Source: Caenorhabditis elegans (taxonomy: Eukaryota; Nematoda; Chromadorea; Rhabditida; Rhabditidae). Taken from it: 64,000 nt of DNA. Of the stretch, positions 15,101 through 37,400 are shown piece after piece. Under the pieces are notes generated by a model. That model had not been told where the DNA came from, ran no database searches, and worked only from the letters and a program-made list of their open reading frames with translations. The position numbers were made by a program, and so were the translations under genes. Location: NCBI RefSeq assembly GCF_000002985.6, contig NC_003280.10, positions 9,606,501 through 9,670,500 of the forward strand. The letters run 5' to 3'. The stretch's first letter is position 1; every line of letters begins with the position of its first letter.

Positions 15101-17670
15101 CGATTAAAATCATAAATTCCTTCTTCTTTTGAAAAACAAAACGTTGTTGTTGCCGAGAAGATGAACAAGGAGACGAAACAAGTGACGATGAATACGCACA
15201 CAGTACCAACGCCCTCATTCAAATTGTGAAATCAGTGAAAATGAATCAATTGAAATGTAAACGAGGAGAGATGGGCGGATGGTTGGGTGTTGAACTATGA
15301 GTGTTCATTTCAAAGGGAAAACATTCTACCGAATAGGCTTCCACTAAATGTTTTGATATTTCAAGAGAGCTAAACAATTAATTGTTCTAATTCAATAAAT
15401 TGGCAAAAACCGGGTTAGCAATGCGTTATGTGCTCGTTCGGATTGGACAGGTGGAAGAGCAAGGAATAAAGCAAACAATTGTGAAACAGTCCGAACATGT
15501 CTGTTTTTTCTCTAAAATCACGAGCCACCTTCACTTTCTCGTGTGTGTGCTTGTTTGCGGGGTTGACTAACTGACTAACAGGGCGGTCTCTCAAAGCGAA
15601 CATGTGATTTCTGCCTGTCTAAATTTTAATTAAAATAGCAAAACTTCCTATATCACAATTTTCGACGGAAAAGTACAGGAGAATGTTCTCTCACAAATTT
15701 TCAGTTATGAATGACGTTAGGGTATTATGTATGTATTTAGTATTCAACAGTATAAGTATGTGTGATTGACACATGCCAAATCTGAACTGGTTTCACAGTT
15801 TTGTGTTGGAAATGATGGGAGAAAATCGGAATGACTATGAGTGAGAGGTGTTAAGTGGAAGAGCGGTTTCACTTTTTTGGCGAATTTTTTGTTTATAGGG
15901 AAATGAACATATTATGCAAACGACGAAATGTCTCGCAACGCGGATAGCAGATTACTGTAACGCATTGCCCGCGTGGCGAGACCCATGATCTACCGAAAAT
16001 TCTCATCTTTAGGCGTCTGCGTTACAAGAAGAATTCAATAATCACGAAAATATCTGATTTTGAAAATTGGGATGATTTTTTCTGACGATTTAATAATTCC
16101 AAATTTCCCATATTTTTCGACATATCAACGAGGAAGTTTCACATTTCCGGGTTAGAAATACAATTTCTAAACAAAAATTCAACACTATTTTCAGTGAAAA
16201 AACATCGAGTGTTCGTTCACCTGCGGAAAAAAGTACAAGTGCGTGGTGGAGTGAAGAGTGTGATGATGAGGAAGTCAAAAATGTTACACTTTTCCAACTA
16301 AAACTAACTAACTAAATGATGGAATCGTTAGAAACAAGGAGGAGAAAAAATAACGGAGAAACTAATGGGTTTTTGAGGGAATTCGTTAAAAAAGTGCAAT
16401 TTTTCTAAGCTAGACGGCTTCTGAGGAGGGGAAGATCAAATAAATTTAAAAAGAGAAGGAAAACCTACCTTGGATGCTTCTGAATTCGAATCTTGAATTT
16501 CAAATCTCCTGGATCTCCTTCAATGTGTGGTTCTCCCTCTCCGTGGAAAATTTGTTGATGACCATTATCGGCTCCAACCTCCACTTCAACCTTAAAATTT
16601 ATGTTGAATTAGAATAACTTCACTGCCAAAAAAAAAGTATCGCTCACCTCCAAAACTTTATTCTCCTGAACCAGCTTCACATTTGGGCACTCGTCACAAA
16701 CTTTCACTTGGAACATTTGGAACCTTCCCTGTCCCATTTGTTCGGTACGCATCTCGTGACGGCAGTTACATTGACGAGTTCCTGACGTTTGCTTGTAAAC
16801 CGCCTTTTTACGTTTGATCTGGAAAAAATGAATTTCTTATAAGGGGGAACATGTTATTGTGAACTATGATAATCCGATTATTTCAACTGGATTCTTTTTT
16901 GCAGATTTAAGTCCTATTTCACTTACCTCGACAAAATGTCCATTGTACACCTCTTCCAGCGTGACGAACAAGTCGATTGTCACATCAGCTCCCTGAAAAA
17001 TCAATAATTGTGAAATTAATTAATAATTAAACTTTCGCGTATATTTGAAACTAAATTCGAAAGGAAATAGTTTTAAATATTGATAAATAACCTTTGGAGT
17101 TCCTTCTTCACCTCCATGACCACCTCCGCCACCGAAGAAGTCTCCGAAGAATGATGAGAATGGATCATGGCCTCCACCACCACCACCACCCATTTTCGCA
17201 ACACCTTCTTCTCCATGTCGATCGTACATTGCTCGTTTTTCTTTATCAGAAAGTACCTGAAAAATCGATTTTTGTGACGTTTTGGAAAATTAGATCTTGG
17301 AGAATCAGCACCAAAATTTTTCTTTTGGGTATTTGTTTTTTTTTAAACTTATTTTGAATGGCAGAATGAAAACTAGTTTTAAATCTACAAACCTCGTAAG
17401 CCGACGATAAATCTTGGAATTTCTCATTTGCCATTTCATCGTCCTGGTTCCTATCGGGGTGTAATTCTTTTGCTAATTTTCGATAGGCCTGAAATAATTG
17501 CAAATTTTCAATATAAAAACTCAATTAACAATTCAAAAACTTACCTTTTTAATCTGATTAGCATTGGCATTTTTTGCGACACCCAAAATTTTATAAAAAT
17601 CCCTTCCACACTCGACAAAAGCGACCAGGGATGAGGCCAAGACCAGTAGGGAAACGTTCAATATCCGCAT
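12140..17670 (-). CDS. dnj-20: ER-lumenal DnaJ co-chaperone (DNAJB11/ERdj3 type)
   Basis: Eight exons (17545-17670, 17393-17488, 17092-17256, 16927-16992, 16648-16818, 16469-16590, 12620-12743, 12140-12337) join to 355 residues. A signal peptide ([21 protein letters not shown]) precedes a J domain with the HPDRN motif that stimulates BiP ATPase. A Gly/Phe region ([27 protein letters not shown]) and the C-terminal substrate-binding domains follow. The cysteine-containing insert ([18 protein letters not shown]) is typical of ERdj3. The protein works with BiP on unfolded secretory clients in the ER lumen. There is no KDEL-type tail, as in the family. Intron 6 is 3.7 kb, far larger than all the others. 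The gene is divergent from glucosidase II beta, and the intervening promoter has UPR-like sites. Confidence 0.93.
12744..16468. other. 3.7 kb intron of dnj-20
   Basis: No open frame with splice partners was found inside. Content: a CA-repeat and GC-rich patch around 12918-13110 (CCCGCCCGGG), a (GAA)n-like patch near 13230, GA-rich patches at 13880-13920 and 14825-14855, and a single MITE terminus at about 15955-15995 (GCGTGGCGAGACCCA). The size suggests an enhancer-bearing or alternative-promoter intron, but no RNA gene was recognised. Confidence 0.5.
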
Positions 17671-18138: not shown

Positions 18139-19914
18139 ATGCTTCCAAAAATATTAATATTCCTACTGCCTGCATTTTTAGCAGCTGAAGACGTCACTCA
18201 GAGACAACTGAAACCGGTAAAGGGAGTTCCTCATTCTCGTAAGTATTTACAACATTTTAAAATCGTTATGAACTGTTCAATTAAAGTTTTAAACTCAAAA
18301 ATTTTTATTTTAATTTCAAGATAAAAATCCCTATTGGCTCCACATATAAAACCCATTATACTTTCATTTATCGATTTTCAGGTCTCAACCTGTACCAACC
18401 TTCCACAACTGACACCTTCCGATGCTTGGACGGATCCCAAACAATTCTCTATTCCCAATTAAACGATGACTATTGCGATTGTAAAGATGGAAGTGATGAG
18501 CCCGGAACTTCTGCTTGTGGAAACGCTTTTTTCTACTGCTCCAATGTCGGTCATAAAGGAAATTTCATTCCAACTAACCGAGTAAATGATAAACTTTGCG
18601 ATTGCTGTGATGGAAGTGACGAGTATGATTCTGGTGTCGATTGCCCAAACATTTGTGATGAACTAGGCAGAGCAGCTAGAATTGAACATGAAAAAGTTGC
18701 AAATATAGCTAGAAAAGGATACCAGAAGCGTCAAGAGTTGGCTAAGGAAGGACAAGCTTTGAGAGATTCTAAGCTGAAGGATGTCGAGCCACTTAGACAA
18801 GAAAGAGCACTTTTGGAGCCGGATCGTGTGAAGTTTGAAGGAGAGAAAAAGGTTGCGGAAGATGCAGAGAGAAAGTTGCAAGATGAACATAGAAATCAAT
18901 GGGAATCAGTGAAAAATGAAAAGAAGAAGTTGAGAGCAGCAGAATGGTTCGATGAGTTGGATTTGGATAAGAATGGAAAAATCGATAAAGAAGAGCTCAG
19001 ACAGAATATATTTTTAGACGATGATAATGATGGATTCGTTAGTGAAGATGAGGTTAAAGCATATCACACAGTTGGTAAGTTTGAAAGATTTTAAGGTTTT
19101 ATATTTAAAATATTAATTTATTTCAGATGAAGCTGATTTGGAGCACTTCCAGTCACTCATGTACGATCGACTGAAAACTGCTAAACGCACTCATCTTGAC
19201 GACATCCGACACAAAGAAGAAGAGGAAAAGGAAAGAGCTAAAGCTTTAGAAAATGCTCCAGATGACGATGATCTTCTAGCAGAAGAAGACAGACACGATG
19301 CTGAAGGTTCGGAGGATATTGCCCACCCAGATGAGGATGACGAGAAGATGCCAGACTATCCACCAGAAGTTCAACAATTAACTGAAAAAGCACGTGAAGC
19401 ACGTCGACTATTCGATGAAGTTAATACGAAAGTTCAAGACCTTGACGCAAAGATTCGTGAAGCTGAAGACTTTGCTAACTCAGATTATGGCGAGGACAGC
19501 GCGTGGGCTGCACTTAAAGACAAATGTTTTGATAGAAATGTCCAACAGTACACATATCAATTCTGTCCATTTGGACAAAATACTCAAAAAGATACGGGCG
19601 CCTACAGTGGAACTTCACTTGGAAGTTTCAAGGAATGGAGTGGCCCAGAAGGAAATAAGTACTCCAAGATGCATTTTGGAGATGGACAACAGTGTTGGAA
19701 TGGACCAAAGAGGAGCACTGATGTGAGTTTTAAAACAATACGGAATACAAAAAAACCTTCAATCTAAATTTAATTTCAGATCACCATTGAATGCGGAGAA
19801 GAAAATGAGCTTGTTGAAGTCACGGAGCCAGCAAAATGCGAGTATCTCTTCACCTTCCGAACTCCATTGGCATGTGCTGATCCTGACAAGGAAGTTGTTC
19901 ACGAGGAACTTTAA
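18139..19914 (+). CDS. Glucosidase II beta subunit (PRKCSH/80K-H homologue)
   Basis: Exons 18139-18238, 18382-19074, 19127-19722 and 19780-19914 give 507 residues. The protein is the non-catalytic subunit that retains glucosidase II in the ER and helps it trim glucose from N-glycans in the calnexin cycle. Domains in order: a signal peptide (MLPKILIFLLPAFLAAE); two LDL-receptor-A-like Cys modules (CLDGSQ...CDCKDGSDEP and CDCCDGSDEYD); a long coiled coil; an EF-hand pair (DLDKNGKIDKEEL and DDDNDGFVSEDE); a second, acidic coiled coil; a C-terminal mannose-6-phosphate-receptor homology domain (YTYQFCPFGQNTQ; CWNGPKRS; CGEENELVEV; CEYLFTFRTPLAC); and the ER-retention tail HEEL. Length and order match the family. 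I recall this locus as ZK1307.8. It is divergent from dnj-20. Confidence 0.95.
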
Positions 19915-24245: not shown

Positions 24246-25362
24246 AATTTGGCTAGTTTAACATTTTGATTTTTGGATGTTCTTGCAATCTGCAGTTTTT
24301 TTTGCAGTTGCTGTTGACAAACCGTAAGATTCGCTCCAAGAAATAATATTTTCATACTCATAATAATATTGACGTTAACTTTTTCCTTCTTTTCTTTTCG
24401 CTTTTCATCCAGAATCCTCATCACATTTTTCTAGATATTGTGACGTCTTCTTCTCCATCTCCAGCTTCTCAATCTCAATTCAATGCTATCAACATCATCT
24501 GTGTGAAGACCTCTCTCTTTTGATTCGATTTGTCTCCTCCCCCTTACAATCTAACACTAAATAAGAGTTATTGTGCTATTCCCTCTCTCTCTCTCTTCTT
24601 CCCCCTAAAAACTCTTGAAGAGGGTCCATTAAAACTTGTTTTTCCAGACTTTTTTGCTGAAATGTTCCTCTTTCTCGCTGCGTTTTTATTGCTAATCGAA
24701 CTTTTAACACTGATTTATTTTCCTCCAATTTCCTGAATGCAGAGCTCTTAGTGCTCCGGGCATTTTCTTTGCCCTTTTTGTGAGCCAACGGTGTAAAACG
24801 TCATGCACAGTATATTTTTGTTCAGTATCATATTTGCTTTGATAGATTTTTTAGCTTTATCAAAGTGTAAATTGCACATTTTCCAAGGGAGTTTGGAGTT
24901 TCTGACTGAGGCAGGCGGGCGCAATTCGCGCCTCCATAACGCTTACTATTAGTTCTTAAAAATTCAAAAATTAATGTCCTCAAAACAGACGTCATTAAAC
25001 ATTTTGTGCCGTTCCTTTCTTTCATTACCATCTTGATGGGTTTAAGAATTCCCATGGGAAAACTTAAAGGATGAAGTCTGAAATTTGGTTGAAAATGAAA
25101 AAGGAACTTTTTCTCATAAATTAGGCTTTTAGTCTAAATGTTTTTCTTATCTGAAATATTTCAATAACAAGGTCACATTCATTAAAGTTGGTAAACACAT
25201 GATTACCAACTTGTAAAATTATGCCTGAAATTTGTTTAAAAGTAAATTAATACACTCTTTCTTCCTGATTTCTACCGTTTCTTATTTTAAAAACCAGCCG
25301 CTGACCGCGCCTACGGCGCGGGCAACGACTGGCACCATTAAAAGTATTTGACACACATACAC
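24246..25362. other. Unique-looking intergenic stretch
   Basis: No gene is supported. It has a CT-rich run near 24580-24605. Just before the tandem arrays it has a short GC palindrome, CCGCGCCTACGGCGCGG (about 25306-25322), which could be a terminal hairpin of a mobile element. Confidence 0.35.
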
Positions 25363-26660
25363 TTCCAGAATTTTCTCGATTTTTCTAGAAAGTTCTGGAA
25401 CATTCCAGAATTTTCTCGATTTTTCTAGAAAGTTCTGGAACATTCCAGAATTTTCCCGATTTATCTAGAAAGTTCTGGAACATTCCAGAATTTTTCCGAT
25501 TTTTCTAGAAAGTTCTGGAACATTCCAGAATTTTCTCGATTATTCTAGAAATTTCTGGAACATTCCAGAATTTTCCCGATTTATCTAGAAAGTTCTGGAA
25601 CATTCCAGAATTTCCTCGATTTTTCTAGAAAGTTCTGGAACATTCCAGAATTTTCTCGATTTTTCTAGAAAGTTCTGGAACATTCCAGAATTTTCTCGAT
25701 TTTTCTAGAAAGTTCTGGAACATTCCAGAATTTTCCCGATTTATCTAGAAAGTTCTGGAACATTCCAGAATTTTCTCGATTTTTCTAGAAAGTTCTGGAA
25801 CATTCCAGAATTTTCCCGATTTTTCTAGAAAGTTCTGGAACATTCCAGAATTTTCTCGATTATTCTAGAAATTTCTGGAACATTCCAGAATTTTCCCGAT
25901 TTATCTAGAAAGTTCTGGAACATTCCAGAATTTCCTCGATTTTTCTAGAAAGTTCTGGAACATTCCAGAATTTTCCCGATTTTTCTAGAAAGTTCTGGAA
26001 CATTCCAGAATTTCCTCGATTTTTCTAGAAAGTTCTGGAACATTCCAGAATTTTCCCGATTTATCTAGAAAGTTCTGGAACATTCCAGATTTTTCTCGAT
26101 TTTTCTAGAAAGTTCTGGAACATTCCAGAATTTTCTCGATTTTTCTAGAAAGTTCTGGAACATTCCAGAATTTTCTCGATTTTTCTAGAAAGTTCTGGAA
26201 CATTCCAGAATTTTCCCGATTTTTCTAGAAAGTTCTGGAACATTCCAGAATTTTCTCGATTTTTCTAGAAAATTCTGGAACATTCCAGAATTTTCTCGAT
26301 TTTTCTAGAAAGTTCTGGAACATTCCAGAATTTTCTCGATTTTTCTAGAAAGTTCTGGAACATTCCAGAATTTTCCCGATTTTTCTAGAAAGTTCTGGAA
26401 CATTCCAGAATTTTCTCGATTTTTCTAGAAAGTTCTGGAACATTCCAGAATTTTCCCGATTTATCTAGAAAGTTCTGGAACATTCCAGAGTTTTCCCGAT
26501 TTTTCTAGAAAGTTCTGGAACATTCCAGAATTTTCTCGATTTTTCTAGAAAGTTCTGGAACATTCCAGAATTTTCCCGATTTTTCTAGAAAGTTCTGGAA
26601 CATTCCAGAATTTTCCCGATTTTTCTAGAAAGTTCTGGAACATTCCAGAATTTTCCCGAT
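25363..26660. repeat. 40 bp tandem array (~32 copies) made of heat shock element pentamers
   Basis: Every 40 bp unit is exactly eight pentamers that alternate TTCnn and GAAnn; only the eighth is degenerate (GATTT). Because 40 is a multiple of 5, the alternating phase is never broken between copies. The array is in effect one continuous heat shock element of about 1.3 kb. Copies differ mainly by C/T in the seventh pentamer and TTC/ATC in the first. HSF-1 trimers bind nTTCnnGAAnnTTCn, so the array offers very many sites. No gene lies closer than about 3.5 kb. Confidence 0.95.
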
Positions 26661-26684
26661 TCTAGATTTCCAGAATTTTAGAAT

Positions 26685-27450
26685 TTTCAGAAAATTCAAA
26701 TTTCCCTCCAAAATATTTTTCTCAGAAAATTAAAATTTCCCTCCAAAATATTTTTTTCAGAAAATTTAAATTTCCCTCCAAAATATTTTTCTCAGAAAAT
26801 TAAAACTTCCCTCCAAAATATTTTTTTCAGAAAATTTAAATTTCCCTCCAAAATATTTTTTTCAGAAAATTAAAATTTCCCTCCAAAATATTTTTCTCAG
26901 AAAATTAAAATTTCCCTCCAAAATATTTTTTTCAGAAAATTTAAATTTCCCTCCAAAATATTTTTCTCAGAAAATTAAAATTTCCCTCCAAAATATTTTT
27001 TTCAGAAAATTTAAATTTCCCTCCAAAATATTTTTTTCAGAAAATTCAAATTTCCCTCCAAAATATTTTTCTCAGAAAATTAAAATTTCCCTCCAAAATA
27101 TTTTTTTCAGAAAATTTAAATTTCCCTCCAAAATATTTTTCTCAGAAAATTAAAATTTCCCTCCAAAATATTTTTTTCAGAAAATTTAAATTTCCCTCCA
27201 AAATATTTTTTTCAGAAAATTTAAATTTCCCTCCAAAATATTTTTTTCAGAAAATTTAAATTTCCCTCCAAAATATTTTTTTCAGAAAATTTAAATTTCC
27301 CGCCAAAATATTTTTCACAGAAAATTTAAATTTCCCGCCAAAATATTTTTCACAGAAAATTTAAATTTCCCGCCAAAATTTTTTTCACAGAAAATTTAAA
27401 TTTCCCGCCAAAATATTTTTCTCAGAAAATTTAAATTTCCCGCCAAAATT
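26685..27450. repeat. 35 bp tandem array (~21 copies)
   Basis: The units consist of TTTCCCTCCAAAATATTTTT followed by a variable TTCAG/CTCAG and AAAATTTAAA. The last five or so copies carry CCCGCC instead of CCCTCC, which indicates local spread of one variant. Each plus-strand unit contains a TTTTTCAG/A that matches the C. elegans 3' splice consensus. The array abuts the 15 bp array without a gap. Confidence 0.93.
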
Positions 27451-27781
27451 TTGGGTCTTACCACGGTGGGTCTCACCACGACGGGTCTCACCACGATGGG
27501 TCTCACCACGAAGGGTATCACCACGATGGGTCTCACCACGATGGGTCTCACCTCGATGGGTCTCACCACGATGGGTATCACCACGATGGGTCTCACCACG
27601 ACGGGTTTCACCACGGTTGGTCTCGCCACGATGGGTCTCGCCACGATGGGTCTCGCCACGATGGGTCTCGCCACGATGGGTCTCACCACGATGGGTCTTT
27701 CCACGATGGGTCTCTCCACGATGGGTCTCACCACGATGGGTCTCGCCACGATGGGTCTCGCCACGATGGGTCTCGCCACGA
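27451..27781. repeat. 15 bp tandem array (~22 copies), GGGTCTCACCACGAT
   Basis: The repeat unit is GGGTCTCRCCACGAY with scattered single-base variants. Both strands are open as period-5 repeat peptides (MGLTT and VARPI), which are artefacts of a 15 bp unit. The unit resembles the GTGGCGAGACCC terminus of MITE-like elements elsewhere in this window (15955, 41130, 44735, 44925), suggesting that the array arose by amplification of a transposon end. Confidence 0.93.
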
Positions 27782-27960
27782 AGAAATTTTTTTTAATTTT
27801 CCAGAAGGTTCTAGAACAATCCAGAATTTTTTCGAATTTTCCAGAAGGTTCTGGAACATTCCAGAATTTTCTAGAATTTTCCAGAAGGTTCTAAAGCTTT
27901 TCAGAATTTTCAGAAGGTTCTGGAACATTTCAGAATTTTCCCGAAGTTTCCAATTTCCCT
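27782..27960. repeat. Degenerate heat-shock-element repeats flanking the arrays
   Basis: About four diverged units of the TTCCAGAAGG-TTCTGGAACA type keep the same alternating TTC/GAA pentamer rhythm as the 40 bp array. They are probably old relatives that were separated from it by expansion of the 35 bp and 15 bp arrays. Confidence 0.75.
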
Positions 27961-27979
27961 TCCAAAGACGGAATGTCAC

Positions 27980-28205
27980 TTTTTCCCAAACTACAGTAAT
28001 CCTACCGTACTCCTACAGTACTCCTACAGTACTACTACAGTACCCCGACCATATCCCCCTACTAACCCCAAACCTATATCTCTTCAAAAGACTAAAACAC
28101 AATTTTTCCTAAACTACAGTAATCCTACCGTACTCCTACAGTACTCCTACAGTACTACTACAGTACCCCGACCATATCCCACTAATAACTCCAAACCTAT
28201 ATCCC
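27980..28205. repeat. Two direct copies of a ~123 bp ACTACAGTA-rich unit
   Basis: The block AAACTACAGTAATCCTACCG, followed by repeated TACTCCTACAGTAC and then CCCCGACCATATCCC, occurs at about 27988 and again at about 28111. Within each copy CTACAGTA recurs as a short internal repeat. It probably belongs to the same composite mobile element as the upstream arrays. Confidence 0.8.
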
Positions 28206-30127
28206 TCCAACAGCCGAAAACGCCTTGCCTTTGTAAGCTATGACGTCACTTCTTCACAAACGGAAACTATTTTTTTATATATAGGTAATGATATATATAG
28301 GTAATGATAATTTCTAAAAAATCATCGCAAGTCTTTCAATATGGCATCATCCTAAACTATAAACTATTCTCAAGTGGATACTTGGAAATTGAGACTTTTC
28401 GTAAAAGATCTTTTGATTTGGACCGTGAGAAAATAAGTTTTGGGAGTTTCTAATATGGAAGTAACTTCTCCATTTTTGTTCCAAGAATATTCAGATTCTG
28501 GAAAGAAGACGTGACTTCTTATACAATGGGAAACTGAAATTGTCATGTTAGACGGCGTGTGCAAAAAAAACATTCTAAGAATATATTGTAGTCTCTCATT
28601 GTTTGAATGAAGTCAAGTTAGACTTTTAAATAAAATTTCTCTGAAGAATGAAAGAATACTTTCGTTTTTGTGTTTTCTTTTGAACATCTAGAATTACATG
28701 CGTTCGTATTTCACTGATCTGTTTTTAATTCCTGTTCTAGTACAAAAATTCTTAATTAAAATGTTATGAAAATCTGATTTTCAGTTTTCTGAAAAAAAAC
28801 CACGAGTCGTTTTAGTTTTCAGTTTGACTTCCGGTAATCTGCACTGTATTAACATAAGGCGGTAGGCAGGCATGTAGGCAGTCAGGGAAGAATTTTATTC
28901 GCCGCCTGCATAAATTTAATGGGTGTCCTAATTTTTTTTTTGGCTATTGATATTTAAGATCTTAAACACCACACCCAATTTTTTATTCTCCAGAAAAGCT
29001 CTCTCCAAATTTCCCAGAACTTTTAGTTAAAACAATAGTTGTAGGTACATTATATCCACTCACTTCCTTCCTCAATTCTCACATTTCTCTCCTTTTCTTC
29101 TCTCTGTTCTCATTTTTCAGAAAAACAACCGAAAAAAGGTTCATTTGACAATAATAGTTTGACAATAATAATAGACATGGAGGAACATTTAGTGAGTACA
29201 GCCTAAACCAAAATTTTGGTAAAAGTTGGCTCTGAAATCTTTTTGAGCAGTTTTCTTTTAGAGCAACTTAGCGGAGAGGAGAGCACAATCAACCACCATT
29301 TATCTTTGTTAGAGTTTCGGGTGTATTCCTTTCCTTCGACCACCACAAATCTCTTTTTTCATGATTTTTATCTGAGCTTGACCTAATTTTTTATGTTTGG
29401 TGGTTTTTGACCGAGTTTGCAGAAATTTGAGTCATATTCTTTTAATTCTCTAATTTAAACTTGCTTCTGATCCAAAAACCTTAACAAGGAAAGTAAGTTA
29501 ATCTAGTCCCGGACTTCGAATCGAGACGTATGTCATTTGAAAGCTTATGGTTAGCCTAGATCACCACAAAAATTTTAGCGGCGGAACTAAACTCTTTTTT
29601 GCTTTTTGCTTTTTTGCAAAAAAATAAAAATTTCCAAAAAGCTTCCACATTGTTTGTTTGACCCTAAAGACCCCCAAAAACAATTTTTAATCGCTCATAG
29701 CCACTTTTAAGGCCATTTACTTGACCTAGAATTCAGCAAAAAAATGCACTGGAGCACTTTCAGATAGCGATTTCAGGGGTTCAGAGTTGAGTTCCGACGC
29801 TGAAATTTTTGTGGTGATCTAGTCTAAACATAAGCTTTCAAATGACATATGTCTCGATTCAAAGTCCGGGACTAGATTGACTTCCTTTCCTTGTAAGTTA
29901 AAGTCATTCACAAGATCAAAATTGTCTTTACTTTCTCTATTGCTGTGTTGTTTTCGATAAATTTTAAATTATTTCACTAGGCCACACGCACGCAACATTT
30001 CAAAAACCCCTCAAGGCCATCCTTTATCTTTTAATTAAATTTCAAAAAATTATTCGAATTTTTCACACCGCATTTCTTTAATTTCCGATCATCTTCTTTT
30101 TTCAGCTCCTAGATCCACTTACACAAA
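28206..30127. other. 5' region of the GPCR gene, including an inverted-repeat transposon
   Basis: Apart from the 409 bp element at 29485-29893 no gene is seen. An ATG at 29177 with a donor (TTA/GTGAGT) at 29193, spliced to the TTTTTTCAG before 30106, would form a leader with a short upstream frame that runs through the GPCR start codon. This suggests a 5' UTR intron of about 0.9 kb. GGCAGGCATGTAGGCAG at about 28865-28881 is a member of a scattered TAGGCAGGC motif. Confidence 0.45.
29485..29893. mobile_element. MITE with ~100 bp terminal inverted repeats, TAA flanks
   Basis: The left end CAAGGAAAGTAAGTTAATCT and the right end ...GACTTCCTTTCCTTG are inverted copies. The match continues inward through CTAGTCCCGGACTT, CGAATCGAGAC and CATTTGAAAGCTTATG and their complements. 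TAA flanks both ends (29482-29484 and 29894-29896), which may be a target site duplication. The interior has no transposase. It lies in the presumed 5' UTR intron of the GPCR gene. Confidence 0.88.
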
Positions 30128-33100
30128 ATGAGCAGTAGCACGGAAATTGCTGATACATCTGAAAATGTGCTCAGCAGCTCTGATGGTTATTCATATGAGG
30201 ATGAGTGGTGGGAAATGAATTGTTCAATTATACCGCCCGAGTTTAACAGGTTAGTTGCATTTTGCAATTTTTATTGTGCACTAGATCTTTCCAATATGCG
30301 GATCAAGTGTATAAACTATGTTCTTCTATCGTACCTACCTACCTGCCTACTTAGATAGTATACCTATAGGTAGGCATAGGTCATCTTGAAGGCAGGAGCA
30401 CATGTTTTATGCCTGTTTGGAAAGCTGAAATCAATCTAGATTAAGTCTTCTATTTTGGATAATGTATTGAATAAAACATAGCTTTCGAATAATTTATTTA
30501 TGTTGCAGAAAAACTGAAACATGATATTCTTGATTATATAATGATGCCATTCAAAAATAATTTATAAAGAAAAAAAAAATAATTTCGCACGTATGTAACT
30601 TCACTCAAGGGAAGAGTGTTCCAAAAATGAATAGCAGATTTTAGCAGGAAAGGTTCTCAGAAAACTTCTGTAACATCAAGCAATCATGAGATCGTTGAAA
30701 ACTGTGAAAAAAAAAGAAAATTAGTTAAAAAGCTAAGAAATCCTGGAGGTTGCCAATAAACGTCTTGTTGAGTTGCTTGGAACAATTTAATTTTCATGTA
30801 AAAAATTTCAAATCTTGGCATTTGCAACTTTCTGTCGAACTTTGGTTTTTATAACTTCCAGGCAAAGTTTGGCAACTTTCTGACAACTTTTCGCTCTTGA
30901 CAAACTTTTTCAGTTTCTGGGTCTGCAACTACCTACCTGCAACTTGTTTGAGCAGCTTTTCAGAAATTGTTGGTAGGAAGTTACCGCTTAAATTTCGGAC
31001 AGCTGACCTTTTTTGACATGGGCAATTATTCAATTAATCAGATACTCTAAATTCCGAATCAACTCTCTTTTGCAATCCTTTCTATTGATTGATAGCACAA
31101 TAAAGTTTTAATATTTCAGACTAATGTTGGTGGGTGTAGTTGGTGCAGTGATTGCCTTCATCTCGGTGTGCTTCAACACATTTCTCTTCGTCGTTCTCTG
31201 CAGGAATCCACGTCATAGACATTCTCACTTGGTGTATTTGATGTTTCTATCAGTAGCTGATATATTTTTATCAGCAGCCTATATTCTATTGTTTCCTGTC
31301 AATTTGTACATGGACTATTTTGCATCTGAACTGTTGGCTGCAGCATGGTGGTCTTATATGAGAATTATGATCACAATATCTCATGTATTCATTTCAACGT
31401 CAGCATTTTTAATTTGTGCAGCAGCATTTGAAAGGTTTGTACTATTCGGAAGATTTCTATTTAAAAATAATCAATATTTAAAGGTACATAACAATTTCAA
31501 AAATTGCGTGCCAGTTTGCTCGTCATCACCGGCTTATAATTATTGGGGCATGTATTTTCATTGCAATTATTGCCAAGGGGCCAATGTATTTTGAGTTTGA
31601 GGTAATTTGAAAAACTAATTATCCACTTGATAGTAATCAATTTTTTCAGGTTGTACCAAATGCGAATTGCACCGGAGTGACGTCACTAACTGCAATTCCC
31701 TCTGAATTCTCAGAGTCCGAGCCTTACAAAACTGCATATAAGGTAAACAGTTGATGGAATTCCTAGTTTAGAATATCCAAGAAAATCGAACAAATCTCAA
31801 AATAAAAAACAACTTTTCTATCAATAATTAATAATAAAATTTCCAGTTCTGGTTCCGAAATCTGCTCACAGTCGCTCTTCCCTTCATAATGTGTTTCTAC
31901 CTCAACTTTGCAATAATGCATCGTCTCCGAATTCAACACCTCGGTGCGAAACTCTTTCGATTCGCCACATCAGAGCATCGTCAGAATATCCGAGCCGCCA
32001 CGCTGATGCTTGTTGCAGTTACATGTTCATATCTGGCATCAAACCTTCTCAATGTTGTAGTATACACTTGGGAACTGGTAGATAAAGAGTCATTACTATC
32101 AGAAAACATTCGGCCTCTTTACACTTTATCTTCGGATTTGGTATCATTGCTGACTGTGGTCGCAAGTGCTTGTCGACTTCCGATTTATTTGGTTTGCAAT
32201 GCAAGGATTCGATGTGAAATTTTGGATTATGTCGATAATTGTGTGCTCACTCATTTACATATCAAACCGTATTCGGTGAGCCTTTTTTTTTGGAAAATAA
32301 AACTGAACCAGCAGTTCCCAGCTTCTACCACTGTTAGTGTAGCTCATTTTTCCATAAAGGCTTAAGTGAAATTTGAGAAAAGTATATAAATCCAGTAAGA
32401 ATAACCTAGTTTGAAAAAATTTAATCATTTTGAAACCTAGAATTTGCATATTCTTCGATGGTATTGCTAGTATTAAGAAAAAATCTAAAGATCTATTGAA
32501 ACATCAAACGTCAAAACTTCGCCTTAGGCCTGCCTGCCTACGTTCTTGTTGACTTCGGCAGAAGGCAGGCAGGTGTGCCTACGTAGTTGGTTTATCCACT
32601 TCTCCGCATGAACCTCTTCTCATAACTTCCGCCTCATTTTAGGGTCTCGGAAGTAAACGATGTCGTGCAACAACTGTAAGATATTGTGACACTGGTAGCG
32701 GTTATATGGTCTATGATGTAAGTTTGAATACACGGAATTTGAGTTATCGGCTCTGCCAAAAATGGGCATATTTGCCCCAAAATATTTTTATTTTTAAAAT
32801 GTAATGAATAATAAAATTATATTTATTCATTTAGTTAGGTTCCGAAAAACTTGTTTCAATATTACTGAATCTAAGTGTTTTAATGATTGTTTTTTAGTAT
32901 TTCGGTAAATTTTATATTTTTAACAAAAAAACTAAGACAAACCGATACAGATTTCGCAGTTATAAAAGTTTGAAGCTACAGTACTTTTTAAAGGCGCACA
33001 CCCGTTTGCATTTAACAAAAATTTGTCGCGTCGAGACCGGGTACCGTATTTTTGACGAAACAATCACGTTTTTTTCTCAATTTTCCAAAAGGGAGCATAT

Positions 33101-34494: not shown

Positions 34495-37400
34495 CTACCG
34501 GATGGTAGAATGCAAATTCAATTTTGATCTGGTGATCGTCGGTGGATTTCCCTTATTAAAGACGTGCCAGAATCGAAGAGTCTCATCACCGGCTCCAGTT
34601 ACGATCGATTCGCCATCTGGTGACATTGCAAGGTACAATACACGATACTGATGCCCAACCAACTTGGTTACAGGCTGAAGACTTGGGTATTTCCAGATGA
34701 TTACCTGAAGCTTAAGAATTCATTAAACACTGTTTTTGAATTATTCGAATTTCTACGGAAAATTTAAAATTTTTCGCAAACAACTTACATGATTAAATGA
34801 ATAACCGTGCGTAGAGACGAGCTCGCTGCTATGCTTCGACCATGCCACATTGCAAACCTGAAAATAATATAAATTTAAGTTAAAAAAAAAAGTAAGCTTT
34901 GAAAATTCATGTATATGTTCTAAAATTGTATACTACGTTTTTCAGATTTTAGAATTTAAATATTTAGGTTATCGTCAGATTTTTTCGTTTTAGAAATTTA
35001 AAATCATATTATCCGCTCAATTATTAAAAATATTAACCTGTGATCCAGTATCAACACATTGCATCGGCTGCGCAGTCAACGTATTCCAGAATCTCAAGCA
35101 TCGATCAGCAGTACCTCCACCAGAAACAAGAAGTCCATGATGATGTGGCGACCACGCGAGCGCTTTCACAGCTGCATTGTGCTGAGTGTATGTCTGAATT
35201 GGCTCGTTTCTTCTCAGATTCCAGACAAGTAATTGATTATCATTTCCACCGGATGCGAGAAGTTGCTTATCAGGTGACCACTTCAATCCACAAACTTCTT
35301 GTCTGTGATTCGTCAACTTTCTACCCATATCATTATCATCACATCGAATATCACGATGCATAATGGTACGATCCCTGGATCCAGAGCAAATTGTATCAGC
35401 ATTCCATGCCAAGCAACCGACTCTTGACGAGTGTCCAGTGAGCTCTCGTGTCTTTTTCTGAGTCGTTACATCCCAGATTTGGGTGACACCTCGACTTGTT
35501 CCAACTGCCAAAAGATCTCCTTTATCACACCATTGAACAGATGTCACTTGATCCTGCTCATTTGTTTGACCCAAATCGCAAAGCTTTATCACCTGAAAGT
35601 TGTACAAATTGCAAGATAATTTGAGGTAAATGTGCTAATCATTTATTAAAAAGTGAAATAAACATAGTATTTTTAAACTCGAATTTTTCAATTTTTTTTT
35701 GAAAATTTTCCGTAAACGGAGATGGGATGCAATTCTACTAAATTATGATTTTTTTAGAATTTTGTTCCATCATTTTTCTCCAACGTTCATTGCCAAAATA
35801 AAGAAGAATATTTGAAAATTAAATTAATTTAACTGAATCATTTGAAAAAAATGCTCGAAAATGGCATGAGAGTTGCAAACTGCCGAAAACAAAATTTCGA
35901 TAAAAATGATAATCGGTTATTGACAACTTTCAGACCATTTTTTAGAACTTTTGCATATGCTTCATTCAATTGTTTTTCTTATTTTCTGTTAAATCCAATA
36001 TTTTTTTTAATCCGACATTAATTTTTAATGGAAAAATAGGAATAACATGGCTCAATAGGTAGTTTTGTAGAATTTTCGATTTTTTTTTTGAAAATCTTTT
36101 TTAAAATCCAACCTGGCTCGTTGTGGCACTCCATAAATAAACACAAGCTGCCAATCCCACAGAAAGTTGATTCTGTGATGACCAATCGACCAAATTCAAA
36201 TAAAAATCATCTTGAAGTTCCGGAGCATCCAAAACTTTATACGGATTCTTTGGAACTTTTCGAATTGGCTTCCTTGGAGTCCTCAACAAACGTTGCGAAT
36301 CAACTCCAAATGGTCCACCAAATGGAGAAGTCGCTGTAGTTGTTGCTTGGCCTCCGTATTTAACAGGCGTCGTTTTAGCACTGTACGTAAAAAGTGATCG
36401 AGCTGGCGATTGTTTTTGAACAATTGGCGATAATGGAAGAGCTGGTGGTGGGGCTTTTGTTGGTGTATCCCCGTTGATACTGGCAGCTGGTGATAAAGGA
36501 ATATCAGCTACGGAGTCAGCACCACAGCGAAGACGAGGTTCCATCATTTGGGCCATTGTAGGAGATTCTGCACCACTGATTCTGAAAATTAAAGTTGAAA
36601 TAAATGTAAATCATGAAAATTTTATTTATTTAAAATTTTTTTAATATCATTAAATTTTACAATTAAAAATTAAAAACAAGTATCGGGGATGGGCGGCAAT
36701 TATTTTCAACGTTTCTTTAAATATTAGTGTCAAAAATTTAAAAAAAAACACGATTTATCTGAAAATAATATTTATTTCAGCGAATGTGCTCAAACATGAC
36801 CTGTAAGTTGCCAATTACCCATTATCGAACTATCTAGCTTTGTTTTTAATTTTTTGGAATTTTTGGCTTTTCAGGCTATTTTTGAGCACTTTCATGAACT
36901 CCAGTGCACTGGAATAAATGTTATTTTTTGATAAATCAGGTGATTTTCTATATTTTCAAACTAACTTTTAACGGAAAATATTGGAACAGAAAAAAAACTT
37001 TTTTTTCGGATCTATAATTCTTATTTTCAATTCAAAATTAAACAAAAACTTTGAAAACCATTAAAATCTCACCTCGTAACATCAATAATTCCTTCGTTGG
37101 CAACTACTGGGAATACTGTATCAACACTTCCACCGTATGCATTCCGTTCCAATTGTGGTATAATTCCACGTGTACCGGATTCTTGAGTGGGCTGTGGGAA
37201 AGCAGAGACGACAGGACCCAAGGAAAACGTGGCAATAACTTCTTCGGAAGTTTGAACTTGCGTTTTGACGTCATCAATTCGATCTTTCAGCATTTCGTTT
37301 CGTAGAAGGGCTCTGAGGACGGCTTCACTACTTCTGGTGTCATCCATACAAGCTGCTTGAGCTGTTGGAGAAGTATTTCCTGATCCAGATGACGTTCCTT

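Follow-up and report, generated by a model that had tools for sequence, protein, structure and literature searches.

The window analysed here is a stretch of 64,000 nucleotides (C2:9606501-9670500) from the C. elegans genome (100,286,401 bp, 7 contigs), and positions given without a contig are counted from its first base. Pfam matches identify a DnaJ-domain protein (17246-17524, minus strand), a glucosidase II beta-like protein (18285-19094, plus strand) and a CDC20/Fizzy WD40 protein (35017-35634, minus strand). Three further frames at 30113-30358, 31112-31594 and 31838-32365, in which no Pfam family was found, may form one gene; their first possible ATG lies near 30128, about 1.8 kb beyond a complete Helitron of the HelitronY4_CE type at 25294-28291 (2,998 bp, minus strand, flanked by A and T). 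The leftmost module of this element is the 40-bp heat shock element (HSE) satellite at 25363-26662 that had been singled out in a first-pass annotation, and the feature should best be extended to the Helitron as a whole.

Helitrons are recognised by a 5' TC, a 3' CTRR, insertion between A and T, and a 3' hairpin. In minus-strand orientation, the element reads A-TCATTACC...GCGGCTGG-T, with TCATTACC supplying the 5' TC and GGCTGG the 3' end, and it sits between an A and a T (A/TC...CTGG/T). Its 3' terminus forms a hairpin of 17 base pairs (25294-25332, minus strand) with a DNA folding energy of -16.8 kcal/mol (z -3.66; 2 of 200 shuffles equally good), the stem of which runs into the terminal CTGG, whereas the textbook Helitron hairpin lies about 10 bases ahead of that motif. 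The element is classed as non-autonomous because no Rep-helicase was found inside it, neither in the 4 frames scanned nor in view of a longest stop-free frame of 225 codons; Helitron_like_N has 13 matches elsewhere in the genome. Two Pfam candidates inside the satellites were rejected as low-complexity matches, Extensin_1 with 37.4 bits against a cut-off of 105, and DDA1 with 25.3 bits against a cut-off of 24 and no single stretch passing.

The boundaries recur across the genome. Many matches to the left flank start at or near the A preceding 25294, and many matches to the right flank stop near 28292. Left-end matches were obtained in 36 regions, one of which (L041) was left unscored for its other orientation; the boundary reads A/CCAG in all 35 scorable regions, window locus included, although the left flanks of L011 and L022 are identical and thus not independent. 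Of 19 regions with right-end matches, 15 have complete ends, each followed by T as in the window, the others being degraded, cut, a 22-base partial match or reverse-oriented. At the right ends of L011, L040, L061, L028 and L049, AAGTAATGA replaces AGGTAATGA (window plus strand), and this second 5'-end subtype suggests that the Helitron comprises two or more subfamilies. Directly beyond the boundary of the window copy, at 28292-28307, stands a second copy of the 16-bp 5'-terminal sequence TATATATAGGTAATGA; the resulting tandem pair of terminal 16-mers (28276-28307) is possibly a double start or an end error of transposition.

With Tandem Repeats Finder, the 40-bp array (plus strand) is placed at 25363-26661 and has a period of 40, 32.5 copies and 95% matches, in line with the roughly 32 copies first counted. 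The claim that the HSF phase is carried across the copies also holds: in register from 25363 there are 260 pentamers in strict TTC/GAA alternation, 215 of them with exact cores, where about 225 half-sites had been estimated, and the remaining 45 one base off (two of three core bases match). The unit had been described as eight exact alternating pentamers, of which the alternation stands and the number does not, as seven are good and, in every one of the 33 units, the fourth from the unit start reads GATTT and is defective. Because of this one defective pentamer per unit, exact runs end at seven pentamers, a length reached 25 times, and the array is not the single unbroken HSE it was taken for. 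A functional HSE comprises at least three alternating nGAAn pentamers, a three-repeat requirement stated in the covered part of the review PMC9737000, and the array, with its 215 exact pentamers in runs of up to seven, has the sequence make-up of such an element. In the window, the 18-base HSE pattern TTCNNGAANNTTCNNGAA was counted 61 times, where 100 dinucleotide shuffles gave 0.03 on average, with 56 occurrences in the array and the other 5 in a small patch at 27795-27950. The unit variants follow one another in the order AABCDBEAABAFDBEFEBGAAFHAAFABIAFF; the succession D-B-E recurs at a spacing of 320 bp, which suggests that the array was shaped partly by block copying.

To the right of the 40-bp array, the element continues with a 35-bp satellite (26684-27449, plus strand, 21.9 units), a 15-bp satellite of TGGGTCTCACCACGA (27452-27781, plus strand, 22 units), the diverged HSE patch already mentioned, and 11-bp repeats. 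The 35- and 15-bp satellites contain zero matches to TTCNNGAANNTTCNNGAA and were used as control arrays. The patch, with periods of 20, 40 and 29, lies 341-496 bp away from the terminal 5' TC, and where the array has the broken GATTT it carries an intact GAA. The 11-bp repeats (CTACAGTACTC) are found, about five per copy, in a 123-bp duplication at 27980-28221 (plus strand). Of the 39 sampled regions, 21 show the three satellites on one strand in the order 40-35-15, and the other 18 are without at least one module in the stretch examined. In one of the regions, L041 (C4:13462220-13465300), a one-strand reading placed the 35- and 15-bp arrays opposite the left terminus and the adjoining 40-bp array; read on both strands, the region has more modules on the other strand, possibly from two abutting or inverted elements.

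Six Helitron satellite families were described by Subirana, Alba and Messeguer (2015; PMC4595182), in the covered parts of which a HelitronY4_CE from chromosome I 7868158, listed with no end, carries the families 4_11, 5_15, 3_34 and 7_40, with family 7_40 and its relatives being approximate multiples of the decamer AGAANNTTCT. The window element unites a 40-bp satellite built on this decamer with 11-, 15- and 34/35-bp satellites. Its array matches C1:7869102-7869501 with 95-98% identity and its terminus matches C1:7869879-7869946 with 99%, both 0.9-1.8 kb past the published start. As judged from unit and satellite set, the window satellite is the published Cele_Fam_7_40 of HelitronY4_CE, and the family is therefore already known; publications on this satellite and Helitron class name the window locus nowhere in the parts covered. 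The proposed link to HSE-carrying C. elegans Helitrons is thereby supported, the array being one module of such an element, and the suggestion that it was inherited from an expanding HSE gains support from the decamer on which the family is built. Section 8 of the review PMC9737000, in the part covered, describes C. elegans chromosomes as being without satellite repeats, which conflicts with the catalogue in PMC4595182 and with the 32 or more arrays of HSF sites sampled here.

For comparison across the genome, 64 loci were merged into 39 regions, and both strands were aligned to the satellite units by wraparound dynamic programming. These 39 are the best-scoring or first-listed places, the search with the array alone giving 257 genome matches. 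Segments of at least 88% identity were kept, which dropped 9 of the 41 found for the 40-bp unit, 5 of 32 for the 35-bp unit and none of 32 for the 15-bp unit; interiors were long enough for scoring in 31 of 32, 21 of 27 and 24 of 32 of the kept segments, respectively. The 32 kept 40-bp arrays measure 126-1,619 bp and are found on all six large contigs, with the window array being the second longest. That it might be the longest or cleanest in the genome was ruled out by L027, which has 40.5 units, and by L065 (C1:13613880-13615330), with 35.5 copies of 40 bp, exact runs of up to 15 pentamers and 240 of 282 in-phase pentamers exact. In L065, which was chosen for a known cluster of the GAA context and is not a random draw, the GAA half-site is intact in most units, which makes it a better candidate than the window array for a long unbroken HSE. 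Genome-wide, a 24-base context around the half-site occurs 269 times in the GAT and 149 times in the GAA version, the one GAA place listed in the window lying within the diverged patch. As the half-site is broken family-wide in the sample, the founder unit was probably already without it, and the 40-bp family would probably have grown from this founder; L065 belongs to a sister subfamily that kept GAA at the broken place in most units.

That the phase-locking looks selected was the other central claim of the first-pass annotation. In its strongest form, selection for a transposon or host function keeps the phase, and the array is a purpose-built, long platform for HSF-1 polymerisation. The interiors of the 40-bp arrays (31 arrays, 12,955 bases) contain 10 indel clusters, of which 8, in 7 arrays, are phase-breaking, giving 0.62 per kb; a one-strand reading without the 40-bp array of L041 gave the same 8 events, in 7 of 30 arrays. 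A raw count of 142 indel events in these arrays was discarded as misleading, because many of the events fell in the first bases or the degenerate last unit, where the alignment enters the flanks. The rate resembles that of the 15-bp control, with 3 phase-breaking events in 6,756 bases or 0.44 per kb (Fisher p 0.76; this and all other p values of the constraint tests are rough, because bases within one array are not independent). Phase-breaking events are rarer in the 40-bp arrays than in the 35-bp control (13 in 4,995 bases, 2.6 per kb; Fisher p 0.001), which speaks for selection; in the 35-bp arrays, 12 of 13 indel events fall next to a T run, at unit positions 30-32. Pooled substitution also leans towards selection, with 3.2% in half-site cores and 5.2% in spacers, but the comparison per position is not significant, either for rates (Mann-Whitney p 0.90) or for distinct array variants (p 0.63; mean 5.5 per core position and 6.7 per spacer position). 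Three further figures argue against maintenance of the half-sites. Of 362 reads of unit position 17 (counting from 0), 359 have the defective T, and departures from the core base affect 13.1% of reads at position 7 and 23% at position 15, which belongs to the already broken pentamer. A weak constraint on half-site cores may exist; clear protection of phase or half-sites is absent from the 32 sampled arrays.

The 40-bp segments were selected by alignment to a 40-bp unit and for this reason cannot prove a constant period, and periods were therefore judged with Tandem Repeats Finder. The 39 regions yielded 66 non-overlapping tandem rows with HSEs, and for 49 of these the best period is 40 bp, in keeping with the idea of a selected phase and with periods in multiples of five; as a rule for all arrays, the latter fails in 7 of the 66 rows, 5 of them short rows of 17-18 bp. 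Segments with broken phase were themselves amplified, with periods of 144 bp (2.9 copies, L053) and 159 bp (2.1 copies, L047 and L050), and L020 has additional rows of 27 and 67 bp in 2 copies each. Amplification of the 40-bp arrays thus looks blind to phase, against what selection on phase would lead one to expect. The 144-bp higher-order repeat of L053 (1697-2115 of the oriented region, 99% match) includes a fragment resembling the left flank of the array (GGCACACATACAC), and the array edge therefore seems to have been amplified too.

In our view, the array is a satellite inside a non-autonomous Helitron of the HelitronY4_CE type, with a phase that stems from its descent from a decamer without selection, and with HSF-1 probably binding it on heat; to this reading as a whole we assign a probability of about 0.85. 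Anatomy, boundaries, family, broken half-site and the absence of clear phase constraint were observed in the window analysis. As to origin, a palindromic HSE decamer would have expanded, in an order that can only be surmised, to a unit of four decamers, which would then have been amplified in tandem and spread by transposition. As 40 bp equal four decamers, each added copy continues the HSF phase automatically, and selection on phase is not needed. What the transposon first gained was perhaps a heat-inducible promoter for the transposase, as proposed by Garrigues et al. (2019; PMC6927752).

For the binding, the published record is one of classes and of other copies. According to the covered parts of PMC6927752, HSF-1 ChIP signal on HelitronY4_CE and other Helitrons increases on heat shock, eight HelitronY4_CE copies have more than 100 HSEs, and a HelitronY4_CE with 96 HSEs is situated upstream of the heat-shock-response gene nhr-247. 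Induction of Helitron1_CE was reported to depend on HSF-1 (Schreiner et al., 2019), the provision of HSF-1 sites by Helitrons was restated in a 2022 paper, and in a 2025 paper the deletion of Helitrons upstream of fbxa-215 altered thermotolerance. HSF-1 DNA-binding domains were reported to bind cooperatively in vitro to most of the multi-pentamer C. elegans HSEs tested, with up to 5 domains bound, and binding along the window array on heat shock is therefore likely. We infer that heat-activated HSF-1 trimers probably occupy many overlapping sites of the array. Such binding could bring in Pol II and render nearby genes heat-inducible, and the arrays could collectively draw HSF-1 from other targets.

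The last of these consequences leads to the alternative that, although doubtful, survives best, namely that the arrays jointly serve as decoys for HSF-1 and so weaken the response to heat shock, especially in germ cells. A review, in the part covered, has germ-cell HSF-1 repressed under heat through preferential binding to Helitrons, citing Edwards et al. (2021), and since it already states this for Helitrons collectively, the HSF-1 sink role suggested for the array is not new as an idea. A single array can contribute only a small share, as the window array holds 26 of the 1,554 exact genome-wide matches to a six-pentamer HSE, and in the published work genes beside Helitron HSEs are activated (PMC6927752).

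It is rather unlikely in our view that the HSF-1 nuclear stress granules of C. elegans have their DNA scaffold in the dispersed HelitronY4-type 40-bp HSE satellites, which would then be a transposon-built counterpart of human satellite III that arose independently in a holocentric animal. Human satellite III blocks are far larger than the 126-1,619 bp of the kept arrays, whose dispersal over six contigs further separates them from such blocks. The dense in-phase sites of the arrays would suit a scaffold, as would the heat-shock binding of HSF-1 to Helitron HSEs (PMC6927752). Worm granules re-form in similar places, implying a scaffold; one paper, in the part covered, calls their DNA sites unknown, and the review PMC9737000 infers a scaffold whose composition is largely so. 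This review mentions HSF-1, Helitrons and nuclear stress bodies, and its covered parts draw no link among them, nor was a link between Helitrons and granules found in the partly covered literature searched.

It is improbable that the satellite of decamers is neutral and structure-prone, its HSE match a coincidence of the palindrome, with no real role for HSF-1: the lack of clear half-site constraint within the arrays would fit, but on heat shock the HSF-1 ChIP signal on these Helitron classes increases (PMC6927752), and the effect of the deletion upstream of fbxa-215 on thermotolerance speaks against it. Selection for phase, on the indel, substitution and period results given above, is about equally improbable.

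With the array and its descent from a decamer as the preferred reading, the feature is real, its family and the class-level binding of HSF-1 to such Helitrons are already described, and the terms unbroken and selected are corrected. The striking phase of the array needs no selective story according to the indel and substitution tests. According to Garrigues et al. (2019; PMC6927752), 11,527 of the 18,766 HSEs in the genome, and thus most of them, lie in Helitrons, so that the way in which HSF-1 handles these arrays bears on how heat-shock ChIP data are read and on how the response evolves.

Among known systems, human satellite III in nuclear stress bodies is, in the sources as covered, also a tandem repeat to which HSF1 binds under heat shock; the worm arrays, known here from sequence alone, differ from it in being Helitron-borne, short and dispersed. 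With the Helitron-acquired HSEs of Garrigues et al. (2019; PMC6927752), the window array shares dense tandem HSEs within Helitrons, whereas the phase across units, the fixed GAT defect and phase constraint are not discussed in the covered parts of that work. Compared to the published Cele_Fam_7_40 in HelitronY4_CE, the window copy has the same AGAANNTTCT-like 40-bp unit and the same set of satellites, and differs in its long array and its doubled 5'-terminal 16-mer.
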